From: Actinomycetota bacterium
GTDB taxonomy: Bacteria; Actinomycetota; Humimicrobiia; Humimicrobiales; Humimicrobiaceae
NCBI GenBank assembly: GCA_023475715.1
Contig: JAMCVO010000119.1
Coordinates: 1 to 20,368 of the forward strand
Length of the DNA: 20,368 nt
Direction: 5' to 3'
The notes beneath the pieces are model-generated. The model was not told the DNA's origin and made no database searches. It worked only from the letters and a program-made list of their open reading frames with translations. Positions 3,037-20,368 of the stretch are shown here, piece by piece; within the stretch, counting starts at the first letter, position 1; every line of letters begins with the position of its first letter. The position numbers and the translations under genes were made by a program.

Positions 3037-3318
3037 TTGTGCAATGTCTTAAAACATTTAGGTTTTAAAGAACGTGTAAGAGGCAGCCATTATATTTTTT
3101 ATAAGGATGGAATTAAAGAAATTATAAATTTGCAACCAAAGAATTCAAATGCCAAAGCCTATCAGGTAAAGCAAATTAGAAATATTATTTACTAGATTTT
3201 TTATAAGGATGGAATTAAAGAAATTATAAATTTGCAACCAAAGAATTCAAATGCCAAAGCCTATCAGGTAAAGCAAATTAGAAATATTATTGTTCAATAT
3301 AAAATCAAAGGTGAGTGA
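3037..3318 (+). pseudogene. hicA: hicA-type mRNA interferase toxin, broken by a 102-bp tandem duplication
   Basis: The frame reads LKHLGFKERVRGSHYIFYKD, then INLQPK and AYQVKQIRNII: the double-stranded-RNA-binding-like HicA fold with the catalytic His in 'GSH'. At 3190-3195 the bases TACTAG create a stop, and from 3196 the last 32 codons are repeated, this time reaching the natural C-terminus VQYKIKGE and TGA at 3316-3318. The upstream side has a stop at 3025-3027 and no ATG; only a TTG at 3037 is available, so about 20 N-terminal residues expected for this HicA subtype also seem to be missing. The toxin is therefore most likely dead or changed. The real stop lies one base before the hicB ATG, as in a normal hicAB operon. 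Confidence 0.75.
3094..3291 (+). repeat. tandem direct repeat inside hicA (2 x 96 bp, 6 bp apart)
   Basis: Bases 3094-3189 are identical to 3196-3291; the six bases TACTAG lie between. The period of 102 is a multiple of three, so the frame is kept. If the unit is taken to begin one codon earlier, TAT in the first copy corresponds to TAG in the second. Confidence 0.95.
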
Positions 3319-3319
3319 A

Positions 3320-3529
3320 ATGTTTAAATATGAAATAATTATTTACTGGAGCAATGATGACGAGGCCTATATTGCAGAGGTTCCTGAGCTGCCTGGTTGT
3401 ATGGCTGATGGGAAAACATATGATGAAGTGCTTGAAAATGTTACTCAGGTAATAAAAGAATGGCTTGAAACTGCAGAAGAACTAGGCCGTGAAATTCCTA
3501 AACCTAAAGGTCGCTTAATATATGCTTAA
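3320..3529 (+). CDS. hicB: HicB-type antitoxin
   Basis: The 69-residue protein has the HicB partial RNase-H-like fold: YEIIIYWSNDDEAYIAEVPE, LPGCMADG, then the helix TYDEVLENVTQVIKEWLE and the final proline-rich KPKGR. HicB binds and blocks HicA. It lacks the C-terminal helix-turn-helix or ribbon-helix-helix of long HicB forms, so it is the short type. The start chosen is the ATG at 3320, preceded by GGTGAG and directly behind the hicA stop; the in-frame ATG at 3290 lies inside hicA and has no site. With hicA broken, this is now an orphan antitoxin, which could still neutralise related HicA toxins elsewhere in the genome (inference). Confidence 0.85.
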   Translation: MFKYEIIIYWSNDDEAYIAEVPELPGCMADGKTYDEVLENVTQVIKEWLETAEELGREIPKPKGRLIYA

Positions 3530-3550
3530 CATAAAGTTGATGTTAAATGA

Positions 3551-3646
3551 CTAACTTTTAATCTTATATTTTCTTATCACAACCTTAAATACATTTTTTA
3601 AATATTTTTAGATCGGCTTATAGACTAAATCCACATTTTTAGATAA
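3551..3646 (+). repeat. diverged intergenic repeat, copy 1 (partner 4207-4325)
   Basis: Downstream of hicB, CTAACTTTTA followed by TTATCACAA, TTAAA, ACAT and later AGAC and TCC recurs in the same order downstream of relE. The similarity is patchy with small gaps, so an old duplication is possible but not proved. No coding potential is seen in this 220-base gap. Confidence 0.4.
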
Positions 3647-3752
3647 CAAATTACAGAATTCATCAATTGTGATTGATAGTTCAAGTTAATTTTAGTAATA
3701 TTGATTGTAAAGTTATAAAAAATCTAGTAAATAATTAAGAAGGTTATTAAAT

Positions 3753-3944
3753 ATGAAATCAAAAATTAAAGATTTAACTGTTGAAGAATTCCAATCTTTA
3801 ATTTCTTCTACGGTCAAAGATACAATTGAAGACGCGATGGAGGATTTACTTGCCCTATCAAGTGAGAATTTTTTGAAATCTATCAAGGAAGCCAGAAATG
3901 ATTACAAGAAAGGTAATTATAAATATCTGGAGGATATCTCTTGA
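3753..3944 (+). CDS. RelB-like antitoxin of a RelE/ParE-type pair
   Basis: A 63-residue acidic, helical protein: KDLTVEEFQSLISSTVKDTI, then EDAMEDLLALSS and a basic tail with KKGNYKYLEDIS. 'LTVEEFQxLI' and the C-terminal 'YKxLED' are common in small antitoxins placed directly before RelE-type toxins. It begins at an ATG with AGAAGG about seven bases upstream. Its TGA overlaps the next start (TTGA), a typical translationally coupled antitoxin-toxin order. No DNA-binding domain is obvious; the N-terminal half may still dimerise and bind the operator. Confidence 0.75.
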   Translation: MKSKIKDLTVEEFQSLISSTVKDTIEDAMEDLLALSSENFLKSIKEARNDYKKGNYKYLEDIS

Positions 3945-4192
3945 GCTACAGGATAGTTTTCACCAATAGAGCTTTAAGAGATTTAAAAGGAATAAATGAA
4001 GAAAATAAAAAAACCATAGTTTCAAAACTAAAAGAATTTTTAATTAACCCCTACTTACATTTAAAAAAATTAACAAATCCAAAAATTGGATCATATAGGT
4101 TTAGAATTGGCAACTATAGAATCATTTTTGATATTGATGGTGATAATATAGTTATTTTAAGAGTTGGAGATAGAAAGAGTATCTACAAATAA
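3941..4192 (+). CDS. RelE/ParE-superfamily toxin
   Basis: The 83-residue protein is a compact RelE/ParE fold: YRIVFTNRALRDLKGI at the N-terminus, a helix, then LTNPKIGSYRFRIGNYRIIF and ILRVGDRKSIYK. The SYRFRIGNYRIIFDID and VGDRKSIY strands carry the basic and aromatic residues used by RelE-type ribosome-dependent mRNA nucleases. The start codon is TTG at 3941, overlapping the antitoxin stop, with a good GGAGG at 3929-3933. Whether it cuts mRNA (RelE) or targets gyrase (ParE) cannot be settled from sequence; the conserved C-terminal R-x-x-x-Y fits RelE better. Confidence 0.85.
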   Translation: MSYRIVFTNRALRDLKGINEENKKTIVSKLKEFLINPYLHLKKLTNPKIGSYRFRIGNYRIIFDIDGDNIVILRVGDRKSIYK

Positions 4193-4206
4193 TCCAATTT
4201 AAAAAC

Positions 4207-4325
4207 CTAACTTTTATTAAAATGACTTTTTTATTTAAAAAAAATTTAAAATATTATCACAAGTTTAAACACATCTTCTAAGATTTTTTAATAGCTCGGT
4301 GTACAGACAGGCTCCTATTTTATAA
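4207..4325 (+). repeat. diverged intergenic repeat, copy 2 (partner 3551-3646)
   Basis: After relE the gap of about 230 bases contains CTAACTTTTA, TTATCACAA, TTTAAACACAT and ACAGAC...TCC in the same order as the gap after hicB. Apart from the vapB promoter nothing else is seen in the gap. Confidence 0.4.
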
Positions 4326-4365
4326 TGCGAAACAGTTAAAAATAAACTGGAGTACAAAAATCTTA

Positions 4366-4393
4366 TTTACAAATTCCTACTTTCAGCTAAAAT
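4366..4393 (+). promoter_or_regulatory. promoter of the vapBC-like operon
   Basis: TTTACA (4366-4371), 16-base spacer, TAAAAT (4388-4393), 32 bases before the vapB start. A strong AAAGGAGA ribosome site follows. Confidence 0.6.
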
Positions 4394-4425
4394 ACTACTT
4401 ATATAGATAAGAAAGGAGATATGTA

Positions 4426-4677
4426 ATGGGTAAGACTAAAGTTACCAGGAAAGGACAGGTAACAATTCCAAAAGAAATCAGAGAACAGCTTTCAATAAAA
4501 GAATCTGATAACCTTGAAGTCAAGGTAGTGGGTAATTCTATAGTAATGGAGAGACTGGAATCTTTTGAAAATTTAAGGGGATCAGTAAAAATACCAAATA
4601 AATATAAAAATATGAAATGGAAAGAAATTGAATCTATTGCACAAAGGGAACATGCAAGAGAGGTGATGAATGAGTAA
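4426..4677 (+). CDS. vapB: AbrB/VapB-type antitoxin
   Basis: An 83-residue protein with an AbrB DNA-binding hairpin at residues 3-45 (VTRKGQVTIPKEIREQLSIK ... DNLEVKVVG) and a C-terminal tail with a proline-lysine-tryptophan stretch (KIPNKYKNMKWKEIE) that would wrap the toxin active site. It sits directly upstream of, and overlaps by 8 bases, a PIN-domain toxin, which settles its role as the antitoxin and auto-repressor. The ribosome site AAGGAGA lies about eight bases before the ATG. Confidence 0.9.
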   Translation: MGKTKVTRKGQVTIPKEIREQLSIKESDNLEVKVVGNSIVMERLESFENLRGSVKIPNKYKNMKWKEIESIAQREHAREVMNE

Positions 4678-5077
4678 TATTGTATATGCTGATACTAATA
4701 TATTTTTAAGGTATTTAACAAATGAGCCGGAAGGTTTGTCTGAAAAAGTTTACAATTTTTTTAATGAAATGGAATTGGGAAAATACAGGTTATTTGTTTG
4801 CGATCTGGTAGTCTCCGAATTGGTTTATGTATTGGAAAAAGTTTTTGAAATACCAAAAACAGAAATTTGTGAAAAAGTTAAAATTTTAATGTTAAAAAAA
4901 AATATAATTTTAGAGAATAGTCAAATCATTTTTAAAGCACTGGAAGTTTATAGGGATTTTAATATAAATTTTGTTGATGCATATATTTATAGTCATTCAT
5001 CTAATAATGGAGTAAAAAAATATTTTTCTTTTGATAATCATTTTAAAAAGTTTAATAATATTGAATTGGTACAATAA
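4670..5077 (+). CDS. vapC: PIN-domain ribonuclease toxin, VapC type
   Basis: A 135-residue PIN-domain protein. The metal-binding acidic residues are all in place: D8 in YADTNIFLRYL, E50 in LVVSELVYVLE, D103 in INFVDAYIYSHS and D122 in FSFDNHFKKF. VapC enzymes are Mg-dependent RNases, usually cutting tRNA or rRNA, held in check by VapB. The start overlaps the antitoxin gene. Nothing suggests it is inactive, so of the three toxin-antitoxin pairs in a row the RelE and VapC pairs look functional and the HicA pair does not. Confidence 0.92.
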   Translation: MSNIVYADTNIFLRYLTNEPEGLSEKVYNFFNEMELGKYRLFVCDLVVSELVYVLEKVFEIPKTEICEKVKILMLKKNIILENSQIIFKALEVYRDFNINFVDAYIYSHSSNNGVKKYFSFDNHFKKFNNIELVQ

Positions 5078-16276: not shown

Positions 16277-16440
16277 TCAATAAGTTCACCGATCATACAT
16301 TTTTTATCCTGACTTTTTACTTTTTGCTTAACAGTCAAGATACAAGTATGCATAGCAGTATTTGTTGATTGATAATTTTAATGATTTTTCCATTAAATTA
16401 CTAAATTAAATAAAATTCGTAGTTTTAAAATTGTAATTTT

Positions 16441-16465
16441 GGTTCGAATCCTCTCAGGTCAGCCA
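16441..16465 (+). other. tRNA 3'-end fragment, Gln-like, possible attachment site
   Basis: After GG comes the T-loop TTCGAAT, then CCTCT (3' T-stem), CAGGTCA (acceptor 3' strand), discriminator G and CCA: lengths 7-5-7-1-3 exactly as in a tRNA. A 5' acceptor would be TGACCTG; a leading T with a final AGCCA is typical of glutamine tRNA. The bases before it (TTTTG) do not pair with CCTCT and no cloverleaf exists upstream, so only the 3' end is present. Such fragments mark integrase attachment sites. The insertion sequence begins nine bases later. Confidence 0.65.
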
Positions 16466-16474
16466 AAGTATACC

Positions 16475-16495
16475 CGATGCCTCATATAAAAATCT
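16475..16495 (+). repeat. left terminal inverted repeat of the insertion sequence
   Basis: CGATGCCTCATATAAAAAT at the left edge matches CGATGCCTCATTTAAAAAT read inwards from 17901 on the other strand, with one mismatch in 19. A second copy of TCATATAAAAATCTAA follows at about 16516. Confidence 0.8.
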
Positions 16496-16540
16496 AAACG
16501 AATAATATTCGCTGCTTCATATAAAAATCTAATTGAAATT

Positions 16541-17794
16541 TTAATATCCGGGGACAGTATCATTGACTGATACGTCTATTAAGACCTGTCTTTTTAGAGC
16601 ATTCAATTTAACAAGCTTATTCTGCAGCTTTGTTATTTTTCTTTTTAGAGCTGCTGGATTTAGGCTGTCATACTCTCTTCTTAGCTTTGTCTTTATTCTA
16701 TCACCAATATGTTTTGACTCAAGTACTCTTCTGTATGGAGTCTTAGCATCATCATAGATTTTGGATATTTTAGCCCCTGTTCTTGTCTTTGATATAAGCT
16801 TTCTTACCGGAATAAAAAAATTAATATATAATCTTAAAATACTGTAGAGATCATTTAATAATTTAAGTTCCTCACTAGTATCGTACCTGAGATACCCTAC
16901 TGCTTTTCTCACAACACAGTAGTTTTTCTGTTCTACGTAGCAGCTGTCATTCTTTTTGTAAGGCCTGCTTCTTGTAAATGTAATTTTGTGTTTTTGACAG
17001 TACCTTACAAAATGGGAATTAATAAATTCGGAACCGTTATCTGAATCTAGCCCTAAAATATCAAATGGAAATCTTGCAGCTACCTTATCAAGTGCATCAG
17101 TTACCCATACTTGTGCTTTGTTTCTTATTGCAATAGTTTCATCCCAGCTAGTTGCAATATCAACAAAATTAATGCTAAAGCAAAAGTCCCCGGCAAAGTT
17201 TCCACCCTCATGACTAACCAGATCTGTTTCAAGAAAGCCTGGTTTTTGGCTGTCCCAATCAGAAAATGTCTTTATTGGTATTTGATGTTTAAGTAGAGTG
17301 CCAGGTTTTGTAGAGGACCGGCCCTTACCGATTCTTAACTTTTCTTTAATTGGCTTAAGAAGCCTATCAATTGTTGATGCAGATATGGCAAGCAGTTTTT
17401 GTTTTGTATTGCTTTTCATTTCTATTTCGCTAAAAGTTTCCAGTTTTAATATTATCTCTTCCATAAAAGGTGCCAGACGCTTGCCGCAAGGCATATCAAG
17501 TATTGCCCAGATCTTTTTTAAAATATCTGTAACATCGTCACTATAAAATCTTTTCCTATCTTTCTTTTTTCTTTTATCTTTTCCAATAACATAGCGTATT
17601 TTTCTTTTTCCTTGGCCAATACCGCCTATCTGTTTACCGTAGTACAGTCTTAATACCCTTGAAGCATAGTTTCTGTTATAACTGGTTAGCGCTACAAATT
17701 CATCAAGTATTATTTTCTTTTGCTTCTTTTTTGCTTTTTTGTACCGTGCCTGAACTTCAGCTGTTATTTCTTTTTTGTGCCTCATATTTAACAT
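16541..17794 (-). CDS. transposase with rve-type DDE domain
   Basis: The 417-residue protein starts with a basic helix-turn-helix region (KKIILDEFVALTSYNRNYAS) and a very Lys/Arg-rich stretch at 62-82. The RNase-H-like catalytic core follows with D191 (FLETDLVSHEG), D252 (LDSDNGSEFIN) and E288 (KKNDSCYVEQKN), the last two 35 residues apart as expected for DDE enzymes. All three acids are present so it may be active. It resembles integrase-type transposases annotated near IS481 or ISNCY; I cannot name the family with confidence. The ATG at 17794 has AGGAG eleven bases upstream; the ATG three codons later is possible. The C-terminal codons run close to the left end of the element. Confidence 0.88.
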   Translation of the reverse strand: MLNMRHKKEITAEVQARYKKAKKKQKKIILDEFVALTSYNRNYASRVLRLYYGKQIGGIGQGKRKIRYVIGKDKRKKKDRKRFYSDDVTDILKKIWAILDMPCGKRLAPFMEEIILKLETFSEIEMKSNTKQKLLAISASTIDRLLKPIKEKLRIGKGRSSTKPGTLLKHQIPIKTFSDWDSQKPGFLETDLVSHEGGNFAGDFCFSINFVDIATSWDETIAIRNKAQVWVTDALDKVAARFPFDILGLDSDNGSEFINSHFVRYCQKHKITFTRSRPYKKNDSCYVEQKNYCVVRKAVGYLRYDTSEELKLLNDLYSILRLYINFFIPVRKLISKTRTGAKISKIYDDAKTPYRRVLESKHIGDRIKTKLRREYDSLNPAALKRKITKLQNKLVKLNALKRQVLIDVSVNDTVPGY

Positions 17795-17880
17795 TGATAT
17801 CTCTACTCCTGCTATATTTGAAGATTGTTATTTGCTTTAAGACATAGCCAGAAGCAAAAATTGTTAAAATATTTTCGAGT

Positions 17881-17901
17881 ACATTTTTAAATGAGGCATC
17901 G
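17881..17901 (-). repeat. right terminal inverted repeat of the insertion sequence
   Basis: Partner of the left repeat, 18 of 19 identical. Outside it, a further related copy at about 17906-17934 ends directly at the -35 box of the next promoter. Confidence 0.75.
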
Positions 17902-17934
17902 ATTCAGTTTCAAGTACTTTTTAAATTCGTGATC

Positions 17935-17963
17935 TTGTAAAGGTAATCTTATTTGGTTATAAT
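17935..17963 (+). promoter_or_regulatory. strong promoter for the short RNA upstream of the Abi gene
   Basis: TTGTAA (17935-17940), 17-base spacer, TATAAT (17958-17963). Transcription would start near 17970, just before the hairpin, and not near the protein start at 18041. Confidence 0.7.
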
Positions 17964-17969
17964 AATAGT

Positions 17970-18023
17970 TAACAGATCCCAGGACGCCTCTTCACAATGC
18001 GGACCAGCCTGGGACATTTTTTT
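17970..18023 (+). ncRNA. putative small RNA antitoxin (AbiF-associated type): hairpin plus T-run
   Basis: From the predicted start near 17970 the transcript folds TCCCAGG (17977-17983) against CCTGGGA (18008-18014), with a possible inner CGC/GCG pairing in the 24-base loop (17985-17987 with 17999-18001), and ends at seven T (18017-18023). It has its own strong promoter, a GC-rich stem in AT-rich surroundings, and no open frame. AbiF-type genes are known from comparative and experimental work to carry a conserved upstream non-coding RNA that acts as antitoxin. The position here, 17 bases before the Abi start codon, fits that arrangement. I cannot confirm that the sequence matches the known RNA family. 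Read otherwise, it is simply an intrinsic terminator. Confidence 0.5.
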
Positions 18024-18040
18024 ATATACACAAAATAAAA

Positions 18041-18907
18041 TTGTTAAAACCTCCAAAGACAATAGATGAGCAGATTTCTCTTCTAAGAAGTCGAAATATT
18101 ATTATTGAAGACACTGAAGCAGTAAAATTTTTTTTGGAAAATAATAATTATTATCGGCTAATGGGTTATGCCTTTCACTTAAAAACAGATAAAGCAACTT
18201 ATGTATCCGGAACTAATATATCCACAATTATTGATATTTATAATTTTGATAAATTATTAAGACAACTAGTAATTTCATTACTAGAAGATTTTGAAATTTC
18301 TTTTAGGACTAAACTTGCTTATTATCTCAGCCATAAATATGGAGGTGAATGTTATCTAAAAAAAGATATTTTTGCAGAGCAAAGACTACATTCCGATTTT
18401 ATCTACACTATTGAGAAAAATATAAAACAATCAGTTAATGAACAATTTGTAAAACATCATTTTTCAAAATATGAAGGAAGGTTTCCCTTTTGGGTCTTAA
18501 TAGAGATTTTATCTTTCAGTACTATCTCAAAATTCTTTAAAAATCTTAATAACTCAGATAAAAATTTTTTTTCTAAAAACTTTTATAAGCATGATGCCGT
18601 TTTTTGCGAAAATTGGGTGCATCATTTTTCTGTATTAAGAAATACCTGCGCTCATTATGGGAGACTTTATAATAAAAACTTACTTCCCATTTTAAAATTT
18701 TTAAAAGAGGATGAAAATAAATTTAAAAGAACATTTAAAGTATTTGATTCTTTATTTATCTTGAAAAAAGTTTATTTTGACAAAGATTTATGGTTTAAAT
18801 TTTTAAACAAACTTGAAAATCTAATAACTGAATATAAAACTATAATTGACCTGAACTTAATAGGCTTTCCAGTGGATTATTTATTAATATTGAAAGAAGA
18901 AACTTAA
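18041..18907 (+). CDS. Abi_2 family protein (AbiD/AbiF type), HEPN RNase of abortive infection
   Basis: The 288-residue protein opens with KPPKTIDEQISLLRSRNIII and NNNYYRLMGYAFHLK, the classical Abi_2 start, then FEISFRTKLAYYLSHKYG and the HEPN active site R200-N-T-C-A-H205 (RNTCAHYGRLYN). HEPN domains of this kind are metal-free RNases; AbiD/AbiF proteins stop phage growth by stopping or killing the infected cell, and AbiF has been proposed as an ancestor of Cas13. The start is TTG at 18041; no ATG lies upstream in frame and no ribosome site is visible, so expression should be weak and depend on read-through of the short-RNA terminator. The nearby insertion sequence and tRNA fragment are typical surroundings for a mobile defence gene. 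Confidence 0.9.
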   Translation: MLKPPKTIDEQISLLRSRNIIIEDTEAVKFFLENNNYYRLMGYAFHLKTDKATYVSGTNISTIIDIYNFDKLLRQLVISLLEDFEISFRTKLAYYLSHKYGGECYLKKDIFAEQRLHSDFIYTIEKNIKQSVNEQFVKHHFSKYEGRFPFWVLIEILSFSTISKFFKNLNNSDKNFFSKNFYKHDAVFCENWVHHFSVLRNTCAHYGRLYNKNLLPILKFLKEDENKFKRTFKVFDSLFILKKVYFDKDLWFKFLNKLENLITEYKTIIDLNLIGFPVDYLLILKEET

Positions 18908-18940
18908 TTTTTTAAAATTTAAGTTTCTTTAGATTTATTA

Positions 18941-18978
18941 TTTCTTTTAAAAATTGGTTCGAAATTTCACTACCCGGG
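18941..18978 (+). repeat. 38-bp direct repeat, copy 1 (partner 19923-19960)
   Basis: Identical to 19923-19960 at 33 of 38 positions, the last 17 bases (AAATTTCACTACCCGGG) being the same. Here the repeat contains GGTTCGAA and is followed by CAGCCA, so it resembles a tRNA 3' end, but the T-loop is followed by extra bases and no T-stem or cloverleaf can be built. Confidence 0.85.
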
Positions 18979-19078
18979 CAGCCAGACTTAAAAGCTAAAT
19001 CATTTTAAATGCTACAATAACTTCTGGGAAAAGTGCTATTGATTGTTAATAGAGATTCTAATACTATATTTTCTAACT

Positions 19079-19877
19079 ATGGATTTAAATAAAATAATTA
19101 GTAAAACAAAAACTCCAATAACGATCAAGACTTTGGGAAAAGATTTTTCTAATATTGGTTTGAGTGATGGCATGACTGTATTACTGCATTCCTCACTTAG
19201 TTCGATAGGCTGGGTTTGTGGAGGTGCAGTTGCAGTTATTTTAGCATTGGAGAATGTATTAGGACCGAAAGGTACTCTTGTTATGCCGGCACACTCCGGT
19301 GACCTTTCTGACCCGAGCATATGGGAAAATCCTCCTGTGCACAAATCCTGGTGGAAAATAATAAAAGAGACAATGCCCCCTTATGATTGCGACCTTACAC
19401 CAACCATGGGAATCGGAGTAATTCCTGAAGTATTCAGGAAGCAAAAAGGTGTCTTAAGAAGTAATCATCCACAAGTGTCATTTACCGCCAAAGGGAAAAA
19501 TGCCGAATTTATTATATCTGAGCATAATTTGAATTTTGGATGTGGAGAGTGTTCACCTTTAAAAAAGGTTTATGATATTGATGGATATGTGCTGCTGCTT
19601 GGAGTAGACCATTCAAGCGATACTTCAATCCATCTTGCAGAAGCATTAGCAAATAATTTCAACTGGCGCTCCACTCTTTTATGATAAAAAGAGAAAATGG
19701 GTGGAGTTTAAGGATTATAAGGATTTTACCAGAGATTTTGTAAAACTCGGTAGAGACTTTGTTAAAGCCAAACGCAACTATATCAATATTAGTAATATCG
19801 GAAATGCAAAATCACAATTCTTTAAGCAGAGAGACCTTGTGGATTTTGCTGTCGGCTGGCTAAAGAAAAACAAGTAA
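19079..19877 (+). pseudogene. AAC(3)-like aminoglycoside N-acetyltransferase family gene, frameshifted
   Basis: The first frame (ATG 19079 to TGA 19682-19684) encodes the Antibiotic_NAT fold: TVLLHSSLSSIGWVCGGAVA, GTLVMPAHSGDLSDPS, CDLTPTMGIGVIPEVFR, RSNHPQVSFTAKG and LLLGVDHSSDTSIHLAE. The expected C-terminal part, GAPLFYDKKRKWVEFKDY up to VDFAVGWLKKNK, continues in the next frame from about 19665 to TAA 19875-19877. One surplus base (or two missing) near 19650-19667 explains the break. Joined, the product would be about 265 residues, normal for the family, which acetylates aminoglycosides or, often, unrelated amines. The strong conservation after the shift means it is recent or a sequencing or assembly error. 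An in-frame TTG at 19043 is less likely as start. No ribosome site is obvious. Confidence 0.82.
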
Positions 19878-19922
19878 AAATATTCAAGAATCCATAGCCA
19901 TAAAAATTTTTTAAAATTGATA

Positions 19923-19960
19923 TTTCCGTTAAAAAATAGTTCTAAATTTCACTACCCGGG
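19923..19960 (+). repeat. 38-bp direct repeat, copy 2 (partner 18941-18978)
   Basis: Second copy, with GTTCTAAATTTCACTACCCGGG followed by GCAATCG instead of CAGCCA. The two copies frame the acetyltransferase gene, 982 bases apart. Confidence 0.85.
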
Positions 19961-20005
19961 GCAATCGAAATTGGCTCAGGCTCCAAGGCCAAAATATATA
20001 TTGTA

Positions 20006-20047
20006 ATTGTGGTAAGTTTCTACTACAATTGTGGTATAAATTTACCA
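20006..20047 (+). promoter_or_regulatory. operator-like repeats before the last gene
   Basis: ATTGTGGTA occurs twice in direct order (20006-20014 and 20028-20036). Each has an inverted mate: TACTACAAT (20021-20029, one mismatch) and TACCA (20043-20047). They lie 19-60 bases before the ATG and overlap the likely promoter, so they probably bind the winged-helix protein encoded next. Confidence 0.55.
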
Positions 20048-20065
20048 TAATAATTAATAATCAAG

Positions 20066-20368
20066 ATGATCAATTTATTAGATTTAACAAAATCAAAATT
20101 AAGAAGAAAAATCCTTCAATATTTCTTTACTAATCCTGAACAAGAATTTTATTTAAGGGAAATTGCCAGAAAATTTCAGGAAGATCCAAGCAACCTTTCA
20201 AAAGAAATGATAAGACTTGAAAAAGAAGATATCTTTATTTCAAATTATAAGGGTATGCAAAAATATTATAAACTAAACAAATCTCATCCTTTATTTAATG
20301 AACTTAAATCCATAGTATTTAAAACCATTGGAGTTAAGGGTAGTCTTGAAAATACAGTTAATGAAGTT
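20066..20368 (+). CDS. winged-helix protein, likely N-terminus of a wHTH-nucleotidyltransferase (MNT) protein; continues past window
   Basis: The first 101 codons are present and open to the window end. Residues 5-75 form an ArsR-like winged helix: LTKSKLRRKILQYFFTNPEQ, EFYLREIARKF, PSNLSKEMIRLEKEDIFI, MQKYYKLNKSHPLFNEL. The following LKSIVFKTIGVKGSL is the link that, in proteins I recall, leads into a minimal nucleotidyltransferase domain with a GSYAKG-type motif. Such proteins often pair with a HEPN toxin as antitoxin. The catalytic domain is outside the window, so this part of the call is a prediction. The start at 20066 has only AAG before it. Confidence 0.75.
   Translation, partial: MINLLDLTKSKLRRKILQYFFTNPEQEFYLREIARKFQEDPSNLSKEMIRLEKEDIFISNYKGMQKYYKLNKSHPLFNELKSIVFKTIGVKGSLENTVNEV

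Follow-up and report, generated by a model that had tools for sequence, protein, structure and literature searches.

The window analysed here, the whole 20,368-nt stretch of contig JAMCVO010000119.1 (assembly GCA_023475715.1) from an Actinomycetota bacterium of the Humimicrobiaceae, harbors a locus in which a short predicted RNA lies directly in front of a gene encoding an Abi_2 family protein. The features of this locus are as follows:

17935 to 17963, + strand: predicted promoter TTGTAA-17-TATAAT, scoring 10/12 and found at the same position in relatives
17970 to 18023, + strand: predicted AbiF-type antitoxin RNA of about 54 nt, both ends likewise predicted, with seven T at its 3′ end
17976 to 18015, + strand: AbiF RNA hairpin, identified by a held-out covariance model (R1), alignment to Rfam RF03085 and covariation
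18041 to 18907, + strand: Abi_2/AbiF-type HEPN protein of 288 amino acids, with a TTG start and the site R200-x4-H205

With a probability of about 0.85, we interpret positions 17935-18907 as an AbiF-type module of a toxin and its RNA antitoxin. The elements described there by a sequence-only reading, namely the promoter, hairpin, T run, TTG start and stop codon, are all present in the sequence.

The promoter consists of TTGTAA (17935-17940) and TATAAT (17958-17963), separated by a 17-nt spacer; it is near-consensus, as had been claimed, but unremarkable by itself in a single-sequence scan. The seven T occupy positions 18017-18023 which, with a predicted start near 17970, gives a transcript of 54 nt, and a gap of 17 nt separates them from the TTG at 18041, in agreement with the coordinates given earlier for the transcript, its 7-bp stem and the distance to the gene. 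This TTG is the earliest ATG, GTG or TTG codon in the abi frame, which ends with the stop codon at 18907. No Shine-Dalgarno-like motif precedes it, while such motifs were found at 10 of the 19 gene starts picked in the window (the abi start counted among the 19), so that both the missing ribosome site and the TTG start noted previously hold. Since a second promoter does not fit into the 17-nt gap, the toxin mRNA would have to arise by read-through, and the promoter is predicted to serve the RNA as well as, in this manner, the abi gene. The predicted order of antitoxin RNA, terminator and toxin gene behind a single promoter is that of a type III toxin-antitoxin system. From the terminator, the lack of a ribosome site and the TTG codon, it can reasonably be inferred that the RNA would be abundant and the toxin scarce.

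The translated protein product matches PF07751 (Abi_2) with 159.3 bits, against a curated cut-off of 25.6. Its HEPN site reads R200-NTCA-H205 and is intact, as first proposed, with R200 and H205 invariant in 27 aligned sequences and aligning with R210 and H215 of PDB 8vz6; the protein has the AbiF fold. The profile, structure, held-out model and covariation agree on an AbiF-type protein with an AbiF-type RNA upstream, and by homology the protein is very probably an AbiF-type HEPN RNase toxin that forms a phage-defence pair with this RNA.

The RNA hairpin comprises a 7-bp basal helix, in which TCCCAGG (17977-17983) pairs with CCTGGGA (18008-18014), and a 3-bp inner helix (CGC/GCG; 17985-17987 with 17999-18001), with a single unpaired A between the helices, the hairpin loop CTCTTCACAAT and the 3′ linker GACCAG. 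Similar hairpins were found upstream of many of the Abi_2 relatives in 36 sampled viral loci. Model R1 was built from ten of these loci, with the window and its relative L001 held out, and was restricted to ten sequences with a six-base 3′ linker because RNAs with five-base linkers were out of register in the first alignment. R1 gives a single match in the window at E ≤ 10 (17976-18015; 29.9 bits; E 3.1e-5) and, being derived from other abi loci, places the RNA in the wider AbiF-associated non-coding RNA (ncRNA) family. Across 67 loci there are 33 matches at E ≤ 0.1, including the window and L001, all positioned 5′ of the abi gene on the same strand; 25 of the 36 viral loci (15 of the 26 absent from the model) have matches, while six Actinomycetota matches fall in 5/29 loci. 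R1 gave no match at E ≤ 0.1 in 317 kb of related DNA (41 stretches) devoid of Abi_2 matches. In viral contigs, the exact RNA pattern was not matched, and a single-sequence search likewise yielded no relative. A T run of at least four lies behind the RNA in 27/33 matches, and a promoter scoring at least 9/12, with the -10 box ending 4-14 nt before the RNA, was found in 20/33, against 1.7 expected from base-shuffled flanks.

The stem covariation anticipated for an alignment of upstream regions can be observed in two alignments. In the model-fitted alignment of the 33 matches, 98.6% of the cells pair, 8/9 base pairs change on both sides and the covariation score is 0.481 (0.173 shuffled; ≤0.124 slid), with a count of further pair types no higher than in shuffles. 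The unfitted MAFFT alignment of the ten model sequences shows 98.9% pairing, 5/9 pairs changing on both sides and a score of 0.316 (0.127 shuffled; ≤0.086 slid). Kinship inflates the shuffle tests and the structure derives from the same sequences, so that neither control is perfect. At two basal pairs the window itself has both sides exchanged, with G-C against the C-G of most relatives. The covarying basal and inner helices directly 5′ of the abi gene are likewise those of the AbiF-associated family.

In L001 (VGAZ01000077.1, from an Actinomycetota metagenome-assembled genome), the encoded protein is 76% identical to that of the window. The L001 RNA is identical at 38/40 positions, with both differences unpaired, whereas the abi gene DNA is 80% identical overall and 67% at third positions; the hairpin is thus not absent upstream of close homologues but conserved next to faster-changing gene DNA. 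The promoter in this relative (TTGACA-16-TATAAT) scores 12/12. Three further proteins (P0001, P0003 and P0025) carry N-terminal extensions, MRTSLG[QH]FF, which correspond to the translated 3′ half of the RNA, suggesting that the RNA adjoins the gene there too. Comparison with relatives, through the held-out model, covariation and co-placed promoters, lifts both promoter and RNA above chance. Two AbiF RNA motifs occur in tandem before one abi gene in L045 (1323-1370 and 1437-1481), and the upstream region of L004 similarly holds an R1 match together with a further core of similar appearance, an arrangement reported for the RCd22 RNA of Clostridioides difficile (PMC12373285).

The covariance-model search against the abiF family that the sequence-only reading had put forward gave a divided answer. 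Rfam RF03085 aligns over its full length (1-37 of 37) without a broken pair, but the score of 19.5 bits (E 0.48) lies below the gathering score of 37, which excludes the RNA from strict membership under Rfam's criteria. The earlier suggestion of a compact variant was dropped, as the RNA covers all 37 positions of RF03085 and is as large as other short-loop members. At its gathering score RF03085 recovers abiF in 2/36 viral abi loci, which indicates a narrow threshold, and does not do so in L001. Covariance models for AbiF by Zilberzwige-Tal et al. are mentioned in a Nature paper (PMC12804078), so that the wider RNA family is not new.

An attenuator acting only in cis, which would stop transcription before the abi gene without any action on the protein, would account for a hairpin leading directly into seven T 17 nt ahead of the gene, and for the T runs behind 27 of the 33 such RNAs. 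We regard this as unlikely, as the conservation of loop and linker (CGCCTCT..ATGCGGACCA) goes far past the needs of a terminator and, in C. difficile, a like RNA binds AbiF in trans and neutralises it (PMC12373285). In that organism, the same source describes RCd22 and the toxin AbiFCd under one promoter, with most transcription stopping behind the RNA; RCd22 binds the toxin and neutralises it both in cis and in trans, stem-breaking changes abolish neutralisation, and the R and H residues are required for toxicity. Alternatively, the stretch might be translated into a short leader peptide (ATG at 17997, MRTSLGHFFIYTK) and have no function as RNA, in line with the extension of P0001, P0003 and P0025 in frame across the RNA stretch by gene callers. 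This is very improbable and was rejected: several related RNAs with a pairing stem lack the ATG (e.g. L010, L015, L016 and L023), that of the window is out of frame with the abi gene, and sequence changes follow base pairs. An origin of the hairpin in the adjoining insertion sequence, which ends at 17901, 76 nt before it, has a negligible probability, given that the transposase reads away from the hairpin and that L001, which refutes this explanation, and likewise the viral loci carry the RNA behind other upstream DNA.

Several observations nevertheless weigh against a toxin and RNA antitoxin pair. Taken alone, the promoter is at chance level (19 promoter-like sites against 18.7 expected at 16400-20368) and the hairpin is near chance in single-sequence scans: its fold z-score against shuffles is -3.17 over 71 nt and -2.41 over 50 nt but only -0.37 over 116 nt, and a terminator scan, limited to loops of 3-8, does not list it. 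The RF03085 score falls short, as described above. R1 has no match (E ≤ 0.1) in 11/36 viral and 24/29 Actinomycetota abi loci, and thus not every Abi_2 gene has a recognizable RNA. Finally, RCd22 has two motif copies and a separate terminator (PMC12373285), whereas the window has one copy whose stem itself meets the U tract.

For the toxin and RNA antitoxin we propose the following mode of action. Transcription from the promoter at 17935-17963 would yield the RNA of about 54 nt, with the hairpin and seven U stopping most transcripts and leaving mainly the RNA. The toxin mRNA would be made by read-through and, with its TTG codon and no ribosome site, be poorly translated. By homology to the C. 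difficile AbiF and PbAbiF, the RNA may bind the dimeric HEPN RNase and block R200/H205, and a shortage of RNA, for example upon phage infection, could free the RNase and result in growth arrest. RNA, promoter and gene furthermore seem to be mobilised together in a single cassette, an independent hint of joint action. The following features surround the module:

16441 to 16465, + strand: segment resembling a tRNA-Gln 3′ end
16475 to 17901, - strand: insertion sequence bounded by inverted ends of 28 nt (86%), with an rve-type transposase at 16541-17794
18915 to 18985, + strand: cassette-end site, core GTTCGAAATTTCACTACCCGGGCAGCCA from 18957 (nhmmer E 6.6e-17; copy among the seeds)
19898 to 19966, + strand: second cassette-end site, behind the next gene (nhmmer E 6.9e-14; copy among the seeds)

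The block at 18925-18978 behind the abi gene is repeated at 19907-19960 (81% over 54 nt), and this repeat led to the site GTTCGAAATTTCACTACCCGGGCAGCCA. In the window, the RNA-gene unit is flanked by the segment at 16441, which probably marks the upstream limit of the array, and by the site at 18957; the insertion sequence sits inside, ahead of the promoter, and an acetyltransferase-like gene and the second site follow. That of L001 lies between GGTTCGAATCCTGCCTGGCCAGCCA and a cassette-end site, about 1.07 kb apart. Neither the window nor L001 contains a whole tRNA gene, and the borders are therefore not whole tRNAs. A fluoride riboswitch (RF01734; 61.2 bits) is located behind the abiF cassette of L001 at 4120-4185. 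The frame at 19043-19684, between the two sites of the window, is aminoglycoside 3-N-acetyltransferase-like (PF02522; 231 bits); it falls below the cut-offs of the NCBIfam AAC(3) models, covers the profile partially and seems to end early.

Even odds may be given to a joint reading in which the abiF pair is the cargo of an undescribed integron-like gene-cassette system with a tRNA-like site in an uncultured Actinomycetota class, where cassettes of about 0.5-2.4 kb would be inserted after tRNA-Gln 3′ ends, all facing the same way; each would close with a site of about 75 nt, its final 29 nt imitating the 3′ end of tRNA-Gln (GGTTCGAA...CAGCCA). The site pattern (≤2 mismatches) was found in 16/40 genomes of the class of L001, with no matches to the reversed pattern in the same 40, and a stricter pattern in 15/396 genomes of the phylum, all 15 within these 40. 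A profile seeded with 52 copies was run on 43 stretches (346 kb) picked for holding a site or border and gave 75 sites (E ≤ 1e-3) in 36 of them; arrays lie in the window (16441-19966), L098-L104 and L113-L147. All 19 stretches with at least two sites have them in one orientation (39 neighbour pairs), spaced by 0.5-2.4 kb in 35 pairs, less than 0.1 kb in three and 4.9 kb in one. Across 74 sites, conservation amounts to 1.25 bits per column up to the CCA and to 0.21 beyond it. Among 47 DNA matches of at least 120 nt between stretches, 13 have matching ends near sites, ten of them at +24 to +31, the CAGCCA, including the homology between the window and L103, which stops at the CCA of the site at 18915-18985. 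Left arms match in 26 site pairs, with right arms differing in 23 and the other three being adjacent duplicate sites, although these pairs are not independent, a few left arms match over only 39-51 nt and a few right arms are short; right arms match in nine pairs, with left arms differing in six and the rest being the same three duplicates. Twelve segments resemble the tRNA-Gln 3′ end, four inside tRNA-Gln genes and eight displaced. The 35 intervals of 0.2-3 kb contain 59 open reading frames of at least 60 amino acids, 34 on the site strand and 25 opposite, with exactly one in 15 intervals. Of 20 of these frames compared with Pfam, 17 had a match, including flavodoxin (2), NYN (2), HD, GGDEF and a BrnT/CopG pair.

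Counting against the cassette reading are the mixed gene orientation, the fragmentary genomes, the lack of any strain pair with cassette gain or loss and the absence of site-pattern matches in viral contigs. Furthermore, no integron integrase (TIGR02249) scored above cut-off in six genomes; weaker tyrosine-recombinase matches occur in 6/6 genomes and in 14/14 controls, none of those listed being on the fetched array contigs. A dispersed repeat at gene ends keeps some residual probability as an alternative, but by itself leaves the uniform orientation and sharp homology borders unexplained. Integron gene cassettes are short units, each with a terminal site, that carry varied cargo and form one-orientation arrays; the present arrays share all of these traits, down to a type II toxin-antitoxin pair among the cargo. 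The integron attC R′ box is GTTRRRY. The site consensus here is GTTCGAA and the site ends like tRNA-Gln rather than attC; with no attC box and no integrase above cut-off in the six genomes, a classical integron was rejected. Literature searches on tRNA-anchored or integron-like cassette arrays, covering listings and the openings of abstracts, showed no recognised equivalent, subscription literature lying mostly outside the search.

Elsewhere in the window, type II toxin-antitoxin-like genes occur at 3290-5077 and 1921-2166 (HicB-like, ParE-like, MazE-like with PIN, and a lone MazE-like gene), and a 99-nt direct tandem duplication (3091-3189 and 3193-3291; 99% identical) lies just before the HicB-like gene.

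The AbiF-type gene and its upstream RNA are real and very probably form a toxin and RNA antitoxin, a kind of pair that is already known. With this locus, an uncultured actinobacterial lineage gains a predicted RNA-controlled RNase of the Cas13-ancestor type, and many RNAs of the AbiF-associated family prove to escape the curated Rfam model. A unit of little beyond promoter, RNA and toxin would explain the spread of such pairs, and its carriage as a unit points to a directly testable cassette system.

Type III systems of the ToxIN type have tandem repeats in the antitoxin RNA, which differs from the single R1 match in the window, and the module is not classed with that type. With RF03085 the RNA shares the full-length alignment and the conserved GCCUCU..AUGC core, while its basal helix and 3′ linker letters differ. 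PbAbiF, solved with its ncRNA (PDB 8vz6), is 26% identical to the window protein. In comparison with RCd22-AbiFCd of C. difficile phages (PMC12373285), the toxin gene here starts with TTG without a ribosome site rather than with ATG and a ribosome site. Both systems nonetheless have a short RNA upstream of a promoterless Abi_2 gene with an R-x4-H site, and the abiF motif of RCd22 begins at +9, as does the Rfam match in the window if transcription starts at 17970.
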